Shown here: in pieces, positions 10,411-49,410 of the stretch
Position numbering within the stretch: position 1 is the first letter of the stretch
How the letters are laid out: every line of letters starts with the position of its first letter
Position numbers and translations under genes: made by a program
The notes under the pieces: model-generated
Database searches by the model: none
The model's input: only the letters and a program-made list of their open reading frames with translations
Told to the model about the DNA's origin: nothing
From: Armatimonadota bacterium
GTDB taxonomy: Bacteria; Sysuimicrobiota; Sysuimicrobiia; Sysuimicrobiales; Sysuimicrobiaceae
DNA length: 64,000 nucleotides
Assembly: GCA_031432545.1 (NCBI GenBank)
Contig: JAVKGX010000003.1
Coordinates: 62,001-126,000, forward strand
Direction of reading: 5' to 3'

Positions 10411-10427
10411 CTTTCAGCTGAACTCAA

Positions 10428-10655
10428 GCGAGGAAGGGAAGCAGTAGGCGCCAGCAGCTCTCGCAGAGAACCGGAGCCGGTGCGATCCGGTAGAGCGAAG
10501 CGCTGAACCTCGTCCCCGAGCTTGCCGGGCGAAAGGTCGAGTAGTCCGGCACGCGGCCAGCGTAAACGCCCAACGAGGTCCAAGTTCTCCTGGGGCTTGG
10601 AACTAAGGTGGTACCGCGGGAGCCAACCCGTCCTTAGGTTGGCTCCCGTTGTTTT
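10428..10655 (+). ncRNA. T-box riboswitch, leucine specifier (ilv-leu operon)
   Basis: Senses uncharged tRNA and switches antiterminator for terminator. The stem I base (GCGAGGAAGGG) is followed by AGAGA (10465-10469) and an apical GGTGC loop. The specifier region is GAAC-CTC-G, with CTC at 10509-10511 (leucine). The conserved T-box sequence AAGGTGGTACCGCG is at 10605-10618, just before an intrinsic terminator. The specifier position is assigned by aligning with the metG T-box in this window, which has ATG at the same place (GAAC-ATG-G). A leucine signal suits an operon containing leuACDB. Confidence 0.93.
10618..10655 (+). terminator. T-box-controlled intrinsic terminator
   Basis: An 11-bp perfect stem pairs 10618-10628 (GGGAGCCAACC) with 10637-10647 (GGTTGGCTCCC), has an 8-base loop and is followed by GTTGTTTT. 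The 5' arm overlaps the end of the conserved T-box sequence, so antiterminator and terminator are mutually exclusive. Confidence 0.93.
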
Positions 10656-41683: not shown

Positions 41684-42904
41684 ATGCCGAGCCGCACGGC
41701 TCCCTTCCGAGGGCATCGGATCCCCGACGGCCTGCGCGACTGGCTCCCCGACGAGTGGGGGCGGGTGCGGGCACTGGAGGCGCGGCTTCGTGCGCTGTTC
41801 GGCGCATGGGGATACTGCGAGGTGGCTACGCCGGTGCTGGAATGTCTGGACAGCGTCGCGCGCGGGATCGGCCAGACGCCGCAAGACTGGTTCGTCGTCG
41901 TGGACCGCACCGGTGAACTTTTGGTGCTGCGCCCGGAGATGACCGTGCCGATGGCGCGCCTGGCCGCGGGCCACCTGACGGGGCGGACGGTGCGGCTGTG
42001 CTACTTCGCCGAGGTGTTTCGAGGCCGACGGGCGCGGGGCGCGGCCCGGGAGTTCCGTCAGGCAGGGGTGGAGCGGATCGGGGATCGGGGGTGCGAGGCC
42101 GACGGGGAGGTGATCGCGCTGGCCGCGCACGCGCTGCGGGAGGCCGGCGTGCGTGACTTCCGCATCGGCGTCGGGCACGTGGGGTTGTTGCGCGCGTTGT
42201 TGGAGGCGGCCGGTCTGGACGCCGGGGACCGGCACACGGCGCAGGTGCTGCTGTACCGCCGCGACTTCGTGACGCTGCGCGGGCTGCTGGCGGGCAGCCC
42301 CGCCCGGGTTCGCGATGTCATCTTTTCGCTGCCCGAGTTGCGGGGCGGGGACGCCTCTGCGGCCGTGCGTGACGTCGGGGTCGGGGCCGAGGCTGTGGCG
42401 GAAGTCGATGCGGTGCTGGCGACCCTGCCGGCCTTCGGAGTGGGGGATGCGGTGGAGATGGACCTGGGCTTGATCCGCGACTTCGACTACTACACGGGCG
42501 TCGTGTTCGAGGGATACACCCGGGGGCTTGGGTTGCCGCTGCTGGGCGGGGGCCGCTACGACGAACTGCTGGGGCGCTTTGGGGCCGACCGCCCGGCCAT
42601 GGGGTTCGCGATCGAACTCGAGCGCGTTCTGCCGGCTGCTGACGCGTTGGCCGAGCGGCGACCTGCGCTGCAGATCGTCTACGAGCCGCAGGCGCGCGCC
42701 GCAGCGCTGGACGTGGCGCGGCGTGCGCGCGATGCCGGGTGGGCGGTGACGGTGGATCCGCACCCGGCGGAGCCGCTGGGAGGCGCGCCGACCCTGGCGT
42801 TCACGACGGCGGGCGTCCGTCTTTCCGATCCGGACGGTACCCAACGCGAGGTGCCGGGGGCCCACTGGCAGCAGATCCGCGGCCTGTTGGACGGTGCCCG
42901 GTGA
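41684..42904 (+). CDS. hisZ: ATP phosphoribosyltransferase regulatory subunit
   Basis: 406-aa HisRS-like protein without synthetase activity that activates short-form HisG. Class II synthetase core with motif 2-like LCYFAEVFRGRRARGAAREFRQAGVERIG and YYTGVVFEGYTRGLGLPLLGGGRYDELL. I call HisZ, not HisS, because it overlaps a short hisG and heads the his operon. AAAGGA lies 13 bases upstream of the ATG. Confidence 0.93.
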   Translation: MPSRTAPFRGHRIPDGLRDWLPDEWGRVRALEARLRALFGAWGYCEVATPVLECLDSVARGIGQTPQDWFVVVDRTGELLVLRPEMTVPMARLAAGHLTGRTVRLCYFAEVFRGRRARGAAREFRQAGVERIGDRGCEADGEVIALAAHALREAGVRDFRIGVGHVGLLRALLEAAGLDAGDRHTAQVLLYRRDFVTLRGLLAGSPARVRDVIFSLPELRGGDASAAVRDVGVGAEAVAEVDAVLATLPAFGVGDAVEMDLGLIRDFDYYTGVVFEGYTRGLGLPLLGGGRYDELLGRFGADRPAMGFAIELERVLPAADALAERRPALQIVYEPQARAAALDVARRARDAGWAVTVDPHPAEPLGGAPTLAFTTAGVRLSDPDGTQREVPGAHWQQIRGLLDGAR

Positions 42905-43569
42905 AGAAGCTGACGGTGGCGGTCCCCGCCGGGCGCCTGCGCGCAGACGCGCTGCGCGCCCTCCGATCCGCAGGCTACGCGGGTGCGGCCGATCCCGACG
43001 ACCGCAGCCTGTTGCTGCCGTGGGGTGAGTTGACGGTGCTGGTGGCGAAACCGGTCGATCTGCTGACGTACGTGGAACGCGGTGCGGCCGACTGCGGGAT
43101 TGTCGGCAAGGACGTGCTCCTCGAGCAGTCGCACCACGTCTACGAGTTGCTCGACCTGGGCTTCGGGCGGTGCCGGGGCGTGGTGGCCGTCCCGCGCGGG
43201 CGAACCGCGCTCTGGGACGACGCGCGCCGGCCGCTGCGCATCGCCACGAAGTACCCGCGGGTCGCCGAGGGCTTCTTCCGGGAGCGCGGGCGCCCGGTCG
43301 AGATCGTCGAGATGTACGGGTCGGTCGAACTCGCCCCGCGCGTGGGGCTCAGCGACGGCATCCTCGACGTGGTGATGACCGGCGCTACGTTGCGTGCCAA
43401 CGACCTGGTGGAGGTGGCGCAGGCGTTCGTCTCCACCGCGCGCCTGGTCGTGAACCCCGTGAGCCTGCGCGCCCGGTCCGACGCAGTGCAGACCCTGTTG
43501 GACCGTTTGAGGGGTCGCAGCGGCGGTGCGGCCATCGCCTCGGCCTCGCAGGGGGAGGGATCGGCGTGA
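42901..43569 (+). CDS. hisG: ATP phosphoribosyltransferase catalytic subunit (short form)
   Basis: First enzyme of histidine synthesis (ATP plus PRPP). 222 aa: the short form lacking the C-terminal ACT-like domain and dependent on HisZ. Motifs: VAVPAGRLRADAL, ADCGIVGKDVL, RIATKYPRVAEGFF and GLSDGILDVVMTGATLRAN (PRPP-binding region). GTG at 42901 overlaps the hisZ stop, so subunit ratio is coupled. Confidence 0.96.
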   Translation: MKKLTVAVPAGRLRADALRALRSAGYAGAADPDDRSLLLPWGELTVLVAKPVDLLTYVERGAADCGIVGKDVLLEQSHHVYELLDLGFGRCRGVVAVPRGRTALWDDARRPLRIATKYPRVAEGFFRERGRPVEIVEMYGSVELAPRVGLSDGILDVVMTGATLRANDLVEVAQAFVSTARLVVNPVSLRARSDAVQTLLDRLRGRSGGAAIASASQGEGSA

Positions 43570-44891
43570 GGGTCGTGCGCCTCCGTGACGTCCCGCCGGG
43601 CGACCTGCGCCGGTTGCTGGCGCGTTCCCGGGATCGGATCTTCGACCCCCAGACGCAGGACGCAGTTCGCCGGCTGCTCGACGACGTGCGCGCGCGGGGC
43701 GACCAGGCCGTTGTGGACGCCACGGCCCGATTCGATGGGGTGCGGCTTCGGCCCGATGAACTCGCCGTCTCCCGGCAGCAGATCCGTTCCGCGCACCGGC
43801 GGGTGGACGATGCGGTGCGGGCTGCTCTGGAGGCGGCGATCGAACGCAGCCGGCGGTTCTCCGAGTGGCTGCGGCCGCCGGAGACGGTCGTCGAGGAGAT
43901 CGAGCCCGGCATCACCGTCGGCGTGCGCCACACGTCGATCGCATCGGTCGGCGCGTACGTCCCCTCCGGCAAGGGGAGGTTCCCCTCGACGGTTGCGACG
44001 ATGCTCACGCCGGCCGTGGTGGCCGGCGTTCCGGACATCGCCCTCGTCGTCCCGCCAGGGCCAGACGGTTCGGTGGATCCCGCGGTGCTCCTCGCGGCGG
44101 ACTTGCTGGGGATCGAGCGCGTGTTCTGCGCCAACGGCCCCGCGGGCATTGCCGCGCTCAGCGTGGGGACGGCGACCTTCCCGCGGGTGGAGGCGGTCGT
44201 GGGTCCGGGCAGTCCTCACGTCGTAGCGATGCAACTGACCATCTCGTCGTTGGGCGTGCGCGCGCTGGGACTGATGGGACCCACGGAATCCGTGGTGCTG
44301 GCCGACGGCCGGGCTCCGGTGGACCTCGTGGCGCTCGACTTGGTGAACGAAGCCGAGCACGGCAGTGACTCGGCCTGTTGGCTCGTCACCCCCAGCGCCG
44401 CGCTGGCCGAGGAGGCGGTCGCACGTGTGAGGGACCTGCTGGACCGAATCCCCGAGCCGCGGCGTACCTACGCGCGCGATGCGCTGTCCGATCTGGGCGG
44501 GGCCCTCGTGGTCGATAGCTGGGAGGAAGCGGTGTCGTTCGTGGACGCCTACGCCCCCGAACACCTCCTCATCCACGCCGCCGAGGCGTGGGAGACGGCG
44601 TGGCGCATCCGCCACGCGGGGGAGATTCTCATCGGACCACACACGCCGTTTTCGGCGGCGAACTACGCGATCGGCATACCGGCGGCGCTGCCCACGGGCG
44701 GGGCGGCACGCCGCGAGGGTGGCATTACGGTCCTCAGCTTCCTCAAGACCACGTCTGTGGGACATCTGGATCCGCGTGGCCTGGAGAAGGTGCGAGGCGT
44801 CGTGCAGGCGCTGGGTGCGTATGAGGGTTTCCCCGCGCACGTGATGGCGGTGACCGGTCGACCCGTTGGGCCCTCGGGGCCCGGAGGGTAG
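43566..44891 (+). CDS. hisD: Histidinol dehydrogenase
   Basis: Zinc enzyme oxidising histidinol to histidine with two NAD+. 441 aa. ASVGAYVPSGKGRFPSTV, GPGSPHVVAMQ, LVNEAEHGSDSACWL (zinc His/Gln region), and APEHLLIHAAEA with FSAANYAIG near the C-terminus. The GTG start overlaps the hisG stop. The frame is open upstream inside hisG but without homology. Confidence 0.96.
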   Translation: MRVVRLRDVPPGDLRRLLARSRDRIFDPQTQDAVRRLLDDVRARGDQAVVDATARFDGVRLRPDELAVSRQQIRSAHRRVDDAVRAALEAAIERSRRFSEWLRPPETVVEEIEPGITVGVRHTSIASVGAYVPSGKGRFPSTVATMLTPAVVAGVPDIALVVPPGPDGSVDPAVLLAADLLGIERVFCANGPAGIAALSVGTATFPRVEAVVGPGSPHVVAMQLTISSLGVRALGLMGPTESVVLADGRAPVDLVALDLVNEAEHGSDSACWLVTPSAALAEEAVARVRDLLDRIPEPRRTYARDALSDLGGALVVDSWEEAVSFVDAYAPEHLLIHAAEAWETAWRIRHAGEILIGPHTPFSAANYAIGIPAALPTGGAARREGGITVLSFLKTTSVGHLDPRGLEKVRGVVQALGAYEGFPAHVMAVTGRPVGPSGPGG

Positions 44892-44897
44892 GGGGCC

Positions 44898-45977
44898 ATG
44901 CGGGTCCGACCCAGACCGGAGGTCGACGCGCTGCCGGGTTACCGGCTGACGGTGGTGCCCGCCCCGATCAAGTTGAACCAGAACGAATCCCCCTACGACC
45001 TTCCGCCCGAGGTCAAGGAAGAGGTGCTCGGAACGTTGCGGTCGGTGCCCTGGAACCGCTATCCGCCGATGCGCGCCGGGCGACTGCGGGAAGCGATCGC
45101 CCGGTTACAGGGTGTAAAGCCTGAGAAGGTGATCCTCACCAACGGCTCCAACGAGGCGATCCTCGCGCTGATCTCTGCCTTCGCCGCCGGCGGCACGGTC
45201 GTTCTGCCGGAGCCGGGCTACTCGATGGCCAGACCCCTGGCCGTGACCGCGGGCGCCCACGCGGTGGCCGTTCGGCTGCGCGAAGACCTCAGCATGGATC
45301 CGGACGCGCTCCTTTCCGCCGCGGCCGCCTCCTGCGCATCGATGATCTTCTTCGCCTCCCCGAACAACCCGACGGGCCGCGCCGTACCCCCCGACGACGT
45401 GGAGCGCATCGTGGCGGGCTTTCGTGGCCTGGTGGTCGTCGACGAGGCATACTGGGGTTTCTCGGAAGGGACGGCGCTGCGGCTGCTGCCCGAGCGGGCG
45501 AACGTGGCGGTCGTGCGAACGGCGTCCAAGGCGTTCGGTCTTGCCGGCGTGCGAGTCGGCTGGGTCACCGCGTCGAGGGACGTGATCGCGGCGTTGGACA
45601 AAACCCTGCCACCGTACAACCTGGACGTCTTCGCCCAGGCCGCGGCGGAGGCGATGGTGCGCCGGCCGGATCTGGTGCGCGAGCGCGCATCGCAGGTCGT
45701 GCGGGAGCGCGAACGCGTCCTGGAGGCCCTGCGCGCGCTCGGGGTCGAAGCGTTCGCGAGCGAGGCGAACTTCATCCTGTTCCGCACGCCCGACGCGGCT
45801 GCGACGTTCGACGGCCTGGCGCGGCGCGGCGTGCTCGTGCGGGACGTCTCGCACTTCCCCATGCTCGACGGCTGCCTGCGTGTGACTGTGGGGACGCCTC
45901 CCGACAACGACGCGTTCTTGCAGGCGCTGCGTCAGGCCCTGCCCCGGGTGCGGGCGTCCGGCGGGAGGTCTGTATGA
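44898..45977 (+). CDS. hisC: Histidinol-phosphate aminotransferase
   Basis: PLP class I/II aminotransferase, 359 aa. KLNQNESPYDLP N-terminus, PNNPTGRAVP, VVVDEAYWGFSE, and Schiff-base Lys in TASKAFGLAGVRVGW. ATG 7 bases after hisD. Its stop overlaps the hisB start. Confidence 0.95.
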   Translation: MRVRPRPEVDALPGYRLTVVPAPIKLNQNESPYDLPPEVKEEVLGTLRSVPWNRYPPMRAGRLREAIARLQGVKPEKVILTNGSNEAILALISAFAAGGTVVLPEPGYSMARPLAVTAGAHAVAVRLREDLSMDPDALLSAAAASCASMIFFASPNNPTGRAVPPDDVERIVAGFRGLVVVDEAYWGFSEGTALRLLPERANVAVVRTASKAFGLAGVRVGWVTASRDVIAALDKTLPPYNLDVFAQAAAEAMVRRPDLVRERASQVVRERERVLEALRALGVEAFASEANFILFRTPDAAATFDGLARRGVLVRDVSHFPMLDGCLRVTVGTPPDNDAFLQALRQALPRVRASGGRSV

Positions 45978-46552
45978 GGTCTGCGACGGTCGCGCGCACC
46001 ACGGCCGAGACCTCGGTCCGGGTGTCGCTGAACCTGGACGGCACCGGCCGGCACGATGTGCGGACCGGCATCGGCTTCTTCGACCACGTGCTGGCGCAGC
46101 TCGCCTGCCACGGCGGGTTCGACCTGACCGTTGTGGCGGAGGGCGATCTCGAGGTGGACGCCCACCACACCGTCGAGGACGTGGGCATCACGCTGGGCCA
46201 GGCCCTCTCTGAGGCGCTGTCCGACCGCAGCGGGATCGCCCGGTTCGCCAGCCTCCACGCCGCGATGGACGACGCGCTCGTGCTCTGCGCGGTGGACGCA
46301 GGCGGCCGGCCGTTTCTGGCGTGCGACCTGCGGTTCTCTCTGCCGGTGGTCGGTGCGTTTCCGACGGAACTCGTCGAGGAGTTCCTGCGGGCGTTCGTCA
46401 CGCACGGACGCCTCACCGCCCACGTCAGACTCGTTGACGGCCACAACAGCCACCACATCGTCGAGGCCGTCTTCAAGGGGTTGGGTGTGGTTCTGCGCCG
46501 CGCGGTCGCGGTCGAGCGGCAGGGCGTGCCGTCCACGAAGGGTGTGCTGTGA
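45974..46552 (+). CDS. hisB: Imidazoleglycerol-phosphate dehydratase
   Basis: 192 aa monofunctional dehydratase (no phosphatase domain, as in Gram-positives). Manganese-binding repeats FDHVLAQLACHGGF, DAHHTVEDVGITLG and HNSHHIVEAVFKGL. ATG overlaps hisC stop by four bases. A separate histidinol phosphatase gene is not seen in the window. Confidence 0.97.
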   Translation: MRSATVARTTAETSVRVSLNLDGTGRHDVRTGIGFFDHVLAQLACHGGFDLTVVAEGDLEVDAHHTVEDVGITLGQALSEALSDRSGIARFASLHAAMDDALVLCAVDAGGRPFLACDLRFSLPVVGAFPTELVEEFLRAFVTHGRLTAHVRLVDGHNSHHIVEAVFKGLGVVLRRAVAVERQGVPSTKGVL

Positions 46553-47175
46553 AGGACACAGCGTGCCGGGCCGCCGTCGTGGACTACGGCGCCGGCAATC
46601 TGCACAGCGTGGAGCGTGCTCTCGCCCGAGTGGGGTTCGCCGCCTGGCGGGCGGTGCGGCCGGAGGCGTTGGACGGCGCCGACGTGGTCGTGCTGCCGGG
46701 GGTGGGTGCGTTCGGTCCGGCGTCGCGTCGCCTGCGCGAGGAGGGGTTCTTCGAGGCGATCCGCGCCGCGCTGCGCGAGGGGCGATGGCTCGTCGGGCTG
46801 TGCCTGGGGATGCAGATGCTGTTCGAGGAGAGTGAGGAGGACGGAACCCACGAGGGACTCGGACTGCTGGCGGGCCGGGTCGTGCGGCTGCCCGACGGGA
46901 TGAAGGTGCCACACATGGGCTGGAACACGCTGACGGTCGCCCGCGGTTGCCCGTTCCCTCTGGGCGTGAGGTCCGGGGAGTACGTGTACTTCGTGCACTC
47001 CTTCTACGCCCGAGCCCGCGAGGAGGACACGGTCGCCTGGACCCCGTACGGGGTCCGCGTTCCGGCCATCGTCGCGGCAGGGAGGGTGTTGGGTTTTCAG
47101 TTCCACCCCGAAAAGAGCGGCGAGGTGGGCCTGCGCCTGCTGCGGGGCCTGGCCGGCGCGGTCGGGCGGTCATGA
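46549..47175 (+). CDS. hisH: Imidazole glycerol phosphate synthase glutaminase subunit
   Basis: 208 aa class I glutamine amidotransferase delivering ammonia to His[16 protein letters not shown] start, nucleophile Cys in [11 protein letters not shown], and His-Glu in [12 protein letters not shown] start overlaps hisB. Its partner HisF is here part of a HisA-HisF fusion that begins four bases before the hisH stop. Confidence 0.97.
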
Positions 47176-48716
47176 CGGTCCTGCCCGCCGTCGACGTCCT
47201 CGGCGGGCGGGTCGTCCGGCTGCGCCGGGGCGATTTCGCGCAGGCCACGGTCTACGACTCTGATCCGGTACGGGCCGCGCGACGGTGGACGGCACGGGGT
47301 GCGCGGTGGCTGCACGTCGTGGATCTGGACGGCGCGCGCGTGGGCGCCCCAAGGCAGTTGGGGGTGCTGGCCGCGATCGCGAAGTCAGTCGGTGTCCCCG
47401 TGCAATTCGGGGGCGGCCTCCGGTCGGTCGAATCGGTCGGGCGTGCGCTCGATGCGGGAGCGGCGAGGGTCGTGATCGGCACGTCGGCGCTGACCGATCC
47501 CGCGACGCTGGCGTCGGTGTGCGACCGGTTCGGCGAGCGCGTCGCGGTCGGCCTGGACGTGGAGGACGGGATCGTCCGCATTCGCGGCTGGACCGAGAGT
47601 GCGAGTGTGCACCTCGAAGAGGCGGCCAGGCGTGTGCTGGCGGCGGGCGCGCGCAGGTTGGTCGTCACCGACGTGGTGGCGGACGGGACGATGGCCGGTC
47701 CGAACCTGGAGCTGTACCGACGCCTGGTGCCCCTGGGCGTGCCAGTCGTCGCGTCGGGGGGCGTCCGCGACGTCGACGACCTGCGGGCCCTGCGGGAGAT
47801 CGGAGTGGAGGGCGCGATCGTCGGCCGGGCCCTGTACGAGGGGACCATCGACCTCCGGGAGGCCGTCGACGCGGTGCAAGGCGCACGGTCCGAGGAGTGC
47901 GGCTCCGCGCTCGCCCGGCGCATCATCGCCTGCCTGGATGTCTCGCCGGTGGGTGGACGGGCCCGCGTGGTCAAGGGCGTGCACTTCGTCCGGCTGCGCG
48001 ACGCAGGCGACCCGGTCGAGCTCGCTTTTCTGTACGAGCGGGAAGGCGCGGACGAAATCGTGTTCTTGGACATCACCGCTTCATCGTCGGGTCGCCCGAC
48101 GCTCGAGGACGTCGTCCGGCGGACGGCGTCGGAGGTGTTCATCCCCCTGACCGTGGGCGGGGGCGTCGGTTCGGTCGAAGACGTGCGGCGCTTGCTGCGG
48201 GCCGGGGCGGACAAGGTCGCGGTCAACACCGCGGCGGTGCATCGGCCCGAGCTGGTGTGTGAGGCGGCGGAGATGTTCGGATCGCAGTGCGTCGTCGTCG
48301 CGATCGACGCGCGGCGGCGGCGCGGAGGCTGGGAGGTCTGCACCCACGGGGGGCAGAAGCCCACGGGCCTGGACGCCGTGGCGTGGGCCCGGAGGGTGGC
48401 CGACCTGGGCGCCGGCGAGATCCTGCTGACCAGCATGGACCGCGACGGAACGACCGAGGGATTCGACGTCGCGCTGACGCGCGCGGTGACCGACGCCGTC
48501 GGCATCCCGGTGATCGCATCGGGTGGGGCGGGAGACGTCTCGCACTTCGCGGAAGTCCTCGCCGAGGGCGGCGCGGACGCGGCGCTGGCCGCATCGGTCT
48601 TCCACTTCGGCCGTCTGCGCATCGGCGATCTGAAGGATGCGTTGCGGGCCGCCGGCGTGCCGGTGCGCCCGGCGTTGGGCGGTGCCGGCGGCCGGACACA
48701 AGCGATGGGACGGTGA
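47172..48716 (+). CDS. hisAF: HisA-HisF fusion: phosphoribosylformimino isomerase + imidazole glycerol phosphate synthase cyclase
   Basis: A single 514-aa open frame. Residues 1-240 are HisA (ProFAR isomerase; Asp8 in AVDVLGG, Asp129 in VGLDVEDG). Residues about 247-505 are HisF (Asp256 in IIACLDV, Asp379 in [22 protein letters not shown]). The linker ([17 protein letters not shown]) has no stop, and none of the three forward frames has a stop nearby, so a simple sequencing frameshift is unlikely. An in-frame GTG at 47874 with GGGAGG upstream could additionally yield free HisF. Both halves are half-barrel-duplicated (beta-alpha)8 enzymes acting in consecutive steps. Confidence 0.9.
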
Positions 48717-48741: not shown

Positions 48742-49410
48742 ATGACCGACCGGGAGGATCCGCGGGTGGAGATCCCACAGGGTCGTGGCCCCGTCGCTTT
48801 CGACGACCTGGGGTTGGTGCCCGTCGTGGTCCAGGACCGCTGCACGGGCGCCGTCCTGATGCTCGCCTACGCCGACGCCGCGGCGATCGCCCGAACGGAA
48901 CGGACGGGTCTCGCCCACTTCTGGAGCCGCTCGCGCGGACGCCCCTGGCAGAAGGGCGAGACGAGCGGCCACGTCCTGCGCGTGCACCGGATCTTGACCG
49001 ACTGCGACGGCGATGCGGTGCTGTACGTCGTCGATCCCTCCGGCCCGGCGTGCCACACGGGAGAACGATCCTGTTTCCATCGAGACTTGTCCGGCGCGCG
49101 GGGCGTTGCGCCCGCGGCGGTGCTGGCGGATCTGGCGGCGCTCGTCGCCTCGCGGCGCGCACACCCCGTGGAAGGCTCGTATACCGCCGCGCTGCTGTCC
49201 GACGTCCCGTCGCGCCTACACGCGAAGATCTACGAGGAAGCCGCCGAGGTCGTGCGTGCCGCGCGCGAGGAAGGGCCTCGTCGCCTGGCGGAGGAGGCGG
49301 CCGACCTCCTGTACCATCTGCTGGTGCTGCTCGCCCGGCATGACGTGGCGCTGTCCGATGTGCTGGACGTGCTGGAGCGCCGGCGAGGCGCAACGGGGGC
49401 CGAATCGTAG
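48742..49410 (+). CDS. hisI: Bifunctional phosphoribosyl-AMP cyclohydrolase / phosphoribosyl-ATP pyrophosphatase
   Basis: HisIE fusion, 222 aa. The N-terminal HisI domain (about residues 15-115) carries MLAYADAAA, HFWSRSRGRPWQKGETSGH, DCDGDAVLYVV and CHTGERSCF (zinc cysteines). The C-terminal HisE domain (about 135-215) has KIYEEAAEVVRAA and EEAADLLYHLLVLL. Last gene of the his operon, 25 bases after hisAF; ATG 48742 with CGGATG...CTCG upstream and no strong ribosome site. Confidence 0.95.
   Translation: MTDREDPRVEIPQGRGPVAFDDLGLVPVVVQDRCTGAVLMLAYADAAAIARTERTGLAHFWSRSRGRPWQKGETSGHVLRVHRILTDCDGDAVLYVVDPSGPACHTGERSCFHRDLSGARGVAPAAVLADLAALVASRRAHPVEGSYTAALLSDVPSRLHAKIYEEAAEVVRAAREEGPRRLAEEAADLLYHLLVLLARHDVALSDVLDVLERRRGATGAES

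Follow-up and report, generated by a model that had tools for sequence, protein, structure and literature searches.

Histidine synthesis is a textbook pathway for gene fusion and for the evolution of barrel enzymes, and the locus described here raises the question of whether two complete barrel genes of this pathway, hisA and hisF, have become a single gene. The analysed stretch of DNA, which has a length of 64,000 nucleotides and is referred to as the window, contains a stop-free frame at positions 47172-48716 of the forward strand, whose translation yields a protein of 514 amino acids (aa). The frame encodes a HisA domain (ProFAR isomerase; residues 1-232; 47172-47867) with D8, D129 and the (beta/alpha)8 barrel fold, a linker of 13 aa that is free of stops in all forward frames (residues 233-245; 47868-47906), a HisF domain (IGP synthase cyclase; residues 246-500; 47907-48671) and a short C-terminal tail followed by the stop codon (48672-48716), all on the forward strand. 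With the curated NCBIfam cut-offs as thresholds, the HisA model TIGR00007 matched in full to residues 3-230 (369 bits versus a cut-off of 229) and the HisF model TIGR00735 in full to residues 247-499 (435 bits versus 295). Thus, the window carries a fusion of a whole hisA to a whole hisF gene, with both full domains in one frame. A preliminary description of this DNA had claimed exactly such an uninterrupted frame, and the translation and the domain scores bear it out; D8, D129, D256 and D379 are also located where it had placed them.

Text searches of the open-licence literature did not retrieve a published HisA-HisF fusion. For instance, a survey from 2007 of fusions among the his genes lists hisIE, hisHF, hisNB and hisIED, and the expression "hisA/hisF fusion" in this paper denotes the ancient half-barrel elongation within each gene (PMC1963479). 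Similarly, a review from 2023 names seven genes with fusions, hisD, N, B, H, F, I and E, among which hisA is absent (PMC10138114). The closest parallels are HisHF and eukaryotic HIS7, in which HisF is likewise the C-terminal domain and consecutive or coupled activities are joined (PMC1963479). However, the partner in these proteins is HisH, whereas the window has HisA at the N-terminus and encodes HisH separately at 46549-47175. HisIE, HisNB and HIS4 (HisIED) are likewise bi- or multifunctional his enzymes derived from fused operon neighbours (PMC1963479), but none of them joins a whole HisA to a whole HisF. Moreover, a survey of archaea describes a HisA/F barrel joined to HisIE in four metagenome assemblies (PMC11237513). 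This is also a barrel of the HisA/HisF family within a larger fusion, but it combines one barrel with HisIE, whereas the window combines HisA with HisF. The preliminary description had linked the gene to the half-barrel ancestor of both enzymes; the link holds as a theme, but the gene in the window arose late, by the joining of two complete barrels.

The fused gene is part of a compact operon on the forward strand with the order hisZ, hisG, hisD, hisC, hisB, hisH, hisAF and hisIE. The first five genes occupy 41684-46552 and are followed by hisH (TIGR01855, 216 bits versus a cut-off of 105), whose stop overlaps the start of hisAF in the sequence ATGA, and hisIE is located at 48742-49410 (NF002747, 225 bits versus 187). 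Besides the hisH gene directly upstream of hisAF, the genome has no other copy that exceeds the cut-off. Furthermore, in this 2.19-Mb genome, which is rated 100% complete, PF00977 scores above its cut-off for the two domains of hisAF and for no others. No further copy of hisA or hisF that would make the fusion dispensable was found in this genome, the third PF00977 match reaching 21 bits, which is below the cut-off. Therefore, if the organism makes histidine, hisAF must supply both steps. The possibility that the HisA half is a PriA enzyme (HisA/TrpF) was also considered and ruled out: it scores 259 bits with TIGR01919, which is under the cut-off of 306, and the genome encodes a separate PRAI/TrpF, so that a PriA-type double isomerase is not required.

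The residues expected of both enzymes are present. In an alignment of 17 fusions, D8 and D129 are invariant, and the equivalents of R5, D11, K19, G20, F23, E46, D98, K99, D130, E167 and D176 of the Thermotoga maritima HisF are all kept in the window, the first ten of them being R250, D256, K268, G269, F272, E295, D347, K348, D379 and E416. R5, E46, K99 and E167 form a ring of residues on the HisH side. D11 and D130 are the two catalytic residues, and the loop that closes over the substrate is loop1 (R16-G30) (PMC11350729). D98 shifts toward HisH in the active complex (PMC8115485). The HisF half has one peculiarity: the sequence SPVGGRA (47943-47963, forward strand) replaces the usual three residues after the catalytic Asp and before loop1. 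This four-residue insertion is absent from the other 16 aligned fusions. The HisA half shares 58-63% identity with relatives, and relatives of different genera share 55-58% among themselves; for the HisF half the values are 76-78%, and 80-82% between the other two genera. By these identities the HisF half is slightly more diverged than is usual among the relatives, and the HisA half is not. NG86 dN/dS values against relatives are about 0.28-0.36 for hisA and about 0.16-0.20 for hisF. These values lie inside, or close to, the range that the relatives show among themselves, and both halves are under strong purifying selection. It could be argued from the insertion and the slightly higher divergence of the HisF half that the gene is degenerate, with one inactive domain in an organism that obtains histidine otherwise. 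This is highly improbable given that the catalytic residues are all kept, that purifying selection is strong, that the two domains are the sole genomic copies and that the operon is intact.

A structural model of the fusion was generated with AlphaFold2 from an input alignment consisting of fused rows only, that is, of the 17 fusion proteins. The model has a mean pLDDT of 90 and a pTM of 0.56. Both barrels are confidently predicted, residues 238-246, in the linker region, are disordered (pLDDT below 50), as are residues 504-514 of the tail by the same measure, and the insertion in the HisF half is drawn as a longer beta hairpin. The model thus depicts two barrels that are each well folded and are held together by a flexible tether, with an undefined mutual orientation, which is in line with the modest pTM. 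In Foldseek, the HisF half matched best to 4evz (TM-score of 0.92 by target, 70% identity) and the HisA half matched the ligand-bound HisA structures 5a5w and 3zs4. The model offers nothing in favour of a built-in channel between the barrels. In addition, it places the junction of the linker at the N-terminus of HisF, which is the side where HisH docks in known structures.

The genomes closest to the window do not contain the fusion. In all six genomes of the same family (G001-G006), hisA and hisF are separate genes of a hisBHAF operon; genes, order and neighbours are those of the window, but a stop and a separate start lie between hisA and hisF. Moreover, both genes are apart in every other genome of a phylum set of 43 in which both are readable. 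The preliminary description had regarded separate genes with a stop in relatives as evidence against the fusion. Such genes do occur in the six same-family genomes, but we do not accept them as a refutation: since the window lacks both the stop and the usual HisF start, separate genes in the relatives indicate that the fusion is recent here and not that it is false. As all close relatives keep the genes apart, the fusion is young and specific to its lineage.

The nearest relative by identity is G003 (70% across the whole length), in which both genes are in the same frame, with the junction QAARE*NGMLAKR. In the window, TGC (47898) aligns with the hisA stop of G003 and GCG (47907) with its hisF ATG (47898-47909, forward strand). 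A route of two substitutions from a G003-like ancestor, from the stop to TGC and from ATG to GCG, would be an attractive explanation. However, the frame relation of the genes is variable: G001, which belongs to the same genus as G003, has hisA and hisF out of frame, and the g3 genomes show an out-of-frame overlap of the two genes, as GTGA or TTGA. We therefore regard this route as tentative. The sequence GAGGAG (47892-47897, forward strand), which also encodes Glu-Glu, lies nine bases ahead of the GCG that occupies the place of the earlier hisF start, and it may be what is left of a former ribosome-binding site. In the genomes G390, G392 and G047, the HisF matches are broken in two near residue 394 by an apparent insertion in the HisF barrel.

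The separate genes in all other readable genomes of the family and phylum, and the stop that G003 carries at the corresponding codon, might also indicate an error of sequencing or assembly, the organism having separate hisA and hisF genes and the stop codon having been misread. The window fusion is seen in one assembly, which is the sole genome of its genus in the comparison set. The other two forward frames have stops at 47491 and then 48148, and at 47261 and then 48260, and the fusion frame itself is open up to 48714. All forward frames therefore share a stretch of about 650 bases without a stop (47491-48148), which exceeds the more than 100 bases around the junction that had been noted before, and the accompanying claim that a one-base error could not part the genes holds as well. 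As no stop is nearby in any frame, a single inserted or missed base cannot end HisA before a position deep in HisF, and a frameshift artefact is ruled out. An error would have to involve at least one substitution of a stop codon. Moreover, GCG stands where HisF normally starts, in place of ATG, GTG or TTG, so that either one more error or an unusual internal start would be required. Given also that the same fusion is present in 18 other genomes, an error is very unlikely.

A further question is whether the gene yields products other than the fusion protein. The preliminary description had proposed that free HisF could be made from an internal start, consisting of GGGAGG (47857-47862) and an in-frame GTG (47874) at a spacing of 11 bases (47857-47876, forward strand). 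Both elements are present, but a role as the start of HisF is unsupported. The GTG is an ordinary codon of the C-terminal helix of HisA, and it is TTG in G003 and G001, so that it is not conserved as a start. Furthermore, in the fusions at the loci L123, L144, L185 and L192, the 26 codons that precede the CLD motif of HisF include no ATG, GTG or TTG, which argues that free HisF is not generally needed. A mixture of the fusion with free HisF, originating either from the GTG or from cleavage of the linker, which is predicted to be flexible, is hence unlikely, although somewhat less so than a degenerate gene or a sequencing error.

The preliminary description had also raised the point of whether related genomes share the fusion. 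The close relatives do not, but 18 genomes of unrelated bacteria do. When the fusion protein was used as the query against 386 genomes, two further full-length matches without a stop were identified, in G173 and G124. By following up these matches, fusions were uncovered in G433, G461 and G463, which belong to the order of G124, in 12 genomes of the family f278, and in G517, which belongs to another family of the order that contains f278. Stop-free HisA-HisF frames are thus present in 19 genomes including that of the window. Their linkers vary in sequence and also in length, with about 7 to 26 residues separating the matched segments. In a tree of 87 concatenated HisA and HisF sequences computed with IQ-TREE, six changes of state are required to account for the fusions, each of them forced by well-supported (starred) branches, and such counts do not separate gain from loss. 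The changes fall on the window, G173, G461 together with G463, G124, G433, and f278 together with G517. The fusion is thus recurrent, and independent fusions elsewhere support the reality of the one in the window. Most simply, there would have been at least four gains, namely in the window, in G173, in the order of f278 and, at least once, in the order of G124.

The fusions found elsewhere differ in several respects. In the family f278, they have short and similar linkers, such as RVATPNAIPERVIPCLD, in all 12 genomes (L183-L194), and the fusion is stable and inherited in this family. G124 encodes a triple fusion of HisH, HisA and HisF (779 aa; L123:1611-3950), in which all three domains are over the curated cut-offs. 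Its HisH and HisA domains are connected by a repeat-like linker, RETAEASPDAARETVEVSPDAAGETAEVS. In the tree, G517 (L195) is placed on a very long branch, and the HisF half of its fusion stays below the cut-off of the HisF model. This second barrel is very diverged and has the motif VVPVME where the catalytic IPCLD is otherwise found; it may not be a working HisF and may have another function. In G477, a 279-aa HisH, in which a run of imperfect repeats (VGHSCAAPGT...) is inserted in the glutaminase domain, is encoded beside the HisAF gene (L175:581-1420).

Taken together, a true gene fusion that encodes one bifunctional HisAF enzyme of 514 aa and still needs a separate HisH has, in our estimation, a probability of roughly 0.87. 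This reading is favoured by the open frame, the domain scores, the single copies, the full operon, the kept residues, purifying selection, recurrence and the two-barrel model; it is weakened by the six unfused family members and by the slightly more diverged HisF half with its unique insertion by the active site. Within the hisZGDCBHAF-IE operon, the stop codon of hisA and the start codon of hisF would both have been lost, which would give rise to one protein. Its N-terminal barrel would isomerise ProFAR to PRFAR, and its C-terminal barrel, attached by the flexible linker of about 13 residues, would form imidazole glycerol phosphate and AICAR out of this PRFAR and the ammonia supplied by HisH, a glutaminase encoded by its own gene. 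From the sequence, we infer translation as one protein, both activities and binding of HisH. A 1:1 stoichiometry and a higher local concentration of PRFAR are likely immediate effects, and PRFAR may be channelled from HisA to HisF. A more far-reaching interpretation is that of a convergent innovation with at least four and probably six origins, which became fixed in one family and was once extended to HisH-HisA-HisF, a tethered unit of three activities that passes PRFAR from HisA to HisF and receives ammonia from HisH, with a measurable kinetic or regulatory advantage. We regard this interpretation as speculative and doubtful.

The fusion of whole HisA and HisF, repeated in unrelated lineages and once with HisH, adds a class that is missing from the known his fusions. 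It also provides ready material for testing a channelled hand-over of PRFAR between consecutive barrels. Moreover, unfused sister species are at hand, so that fusion by loss of a stop and a start can be followed. In another part of the window (10422-10638), a T-box leader (RF00230, 112 bits) is located upstream of an open reading frame that by eye resembles the large subunit of acetolactate synthase.
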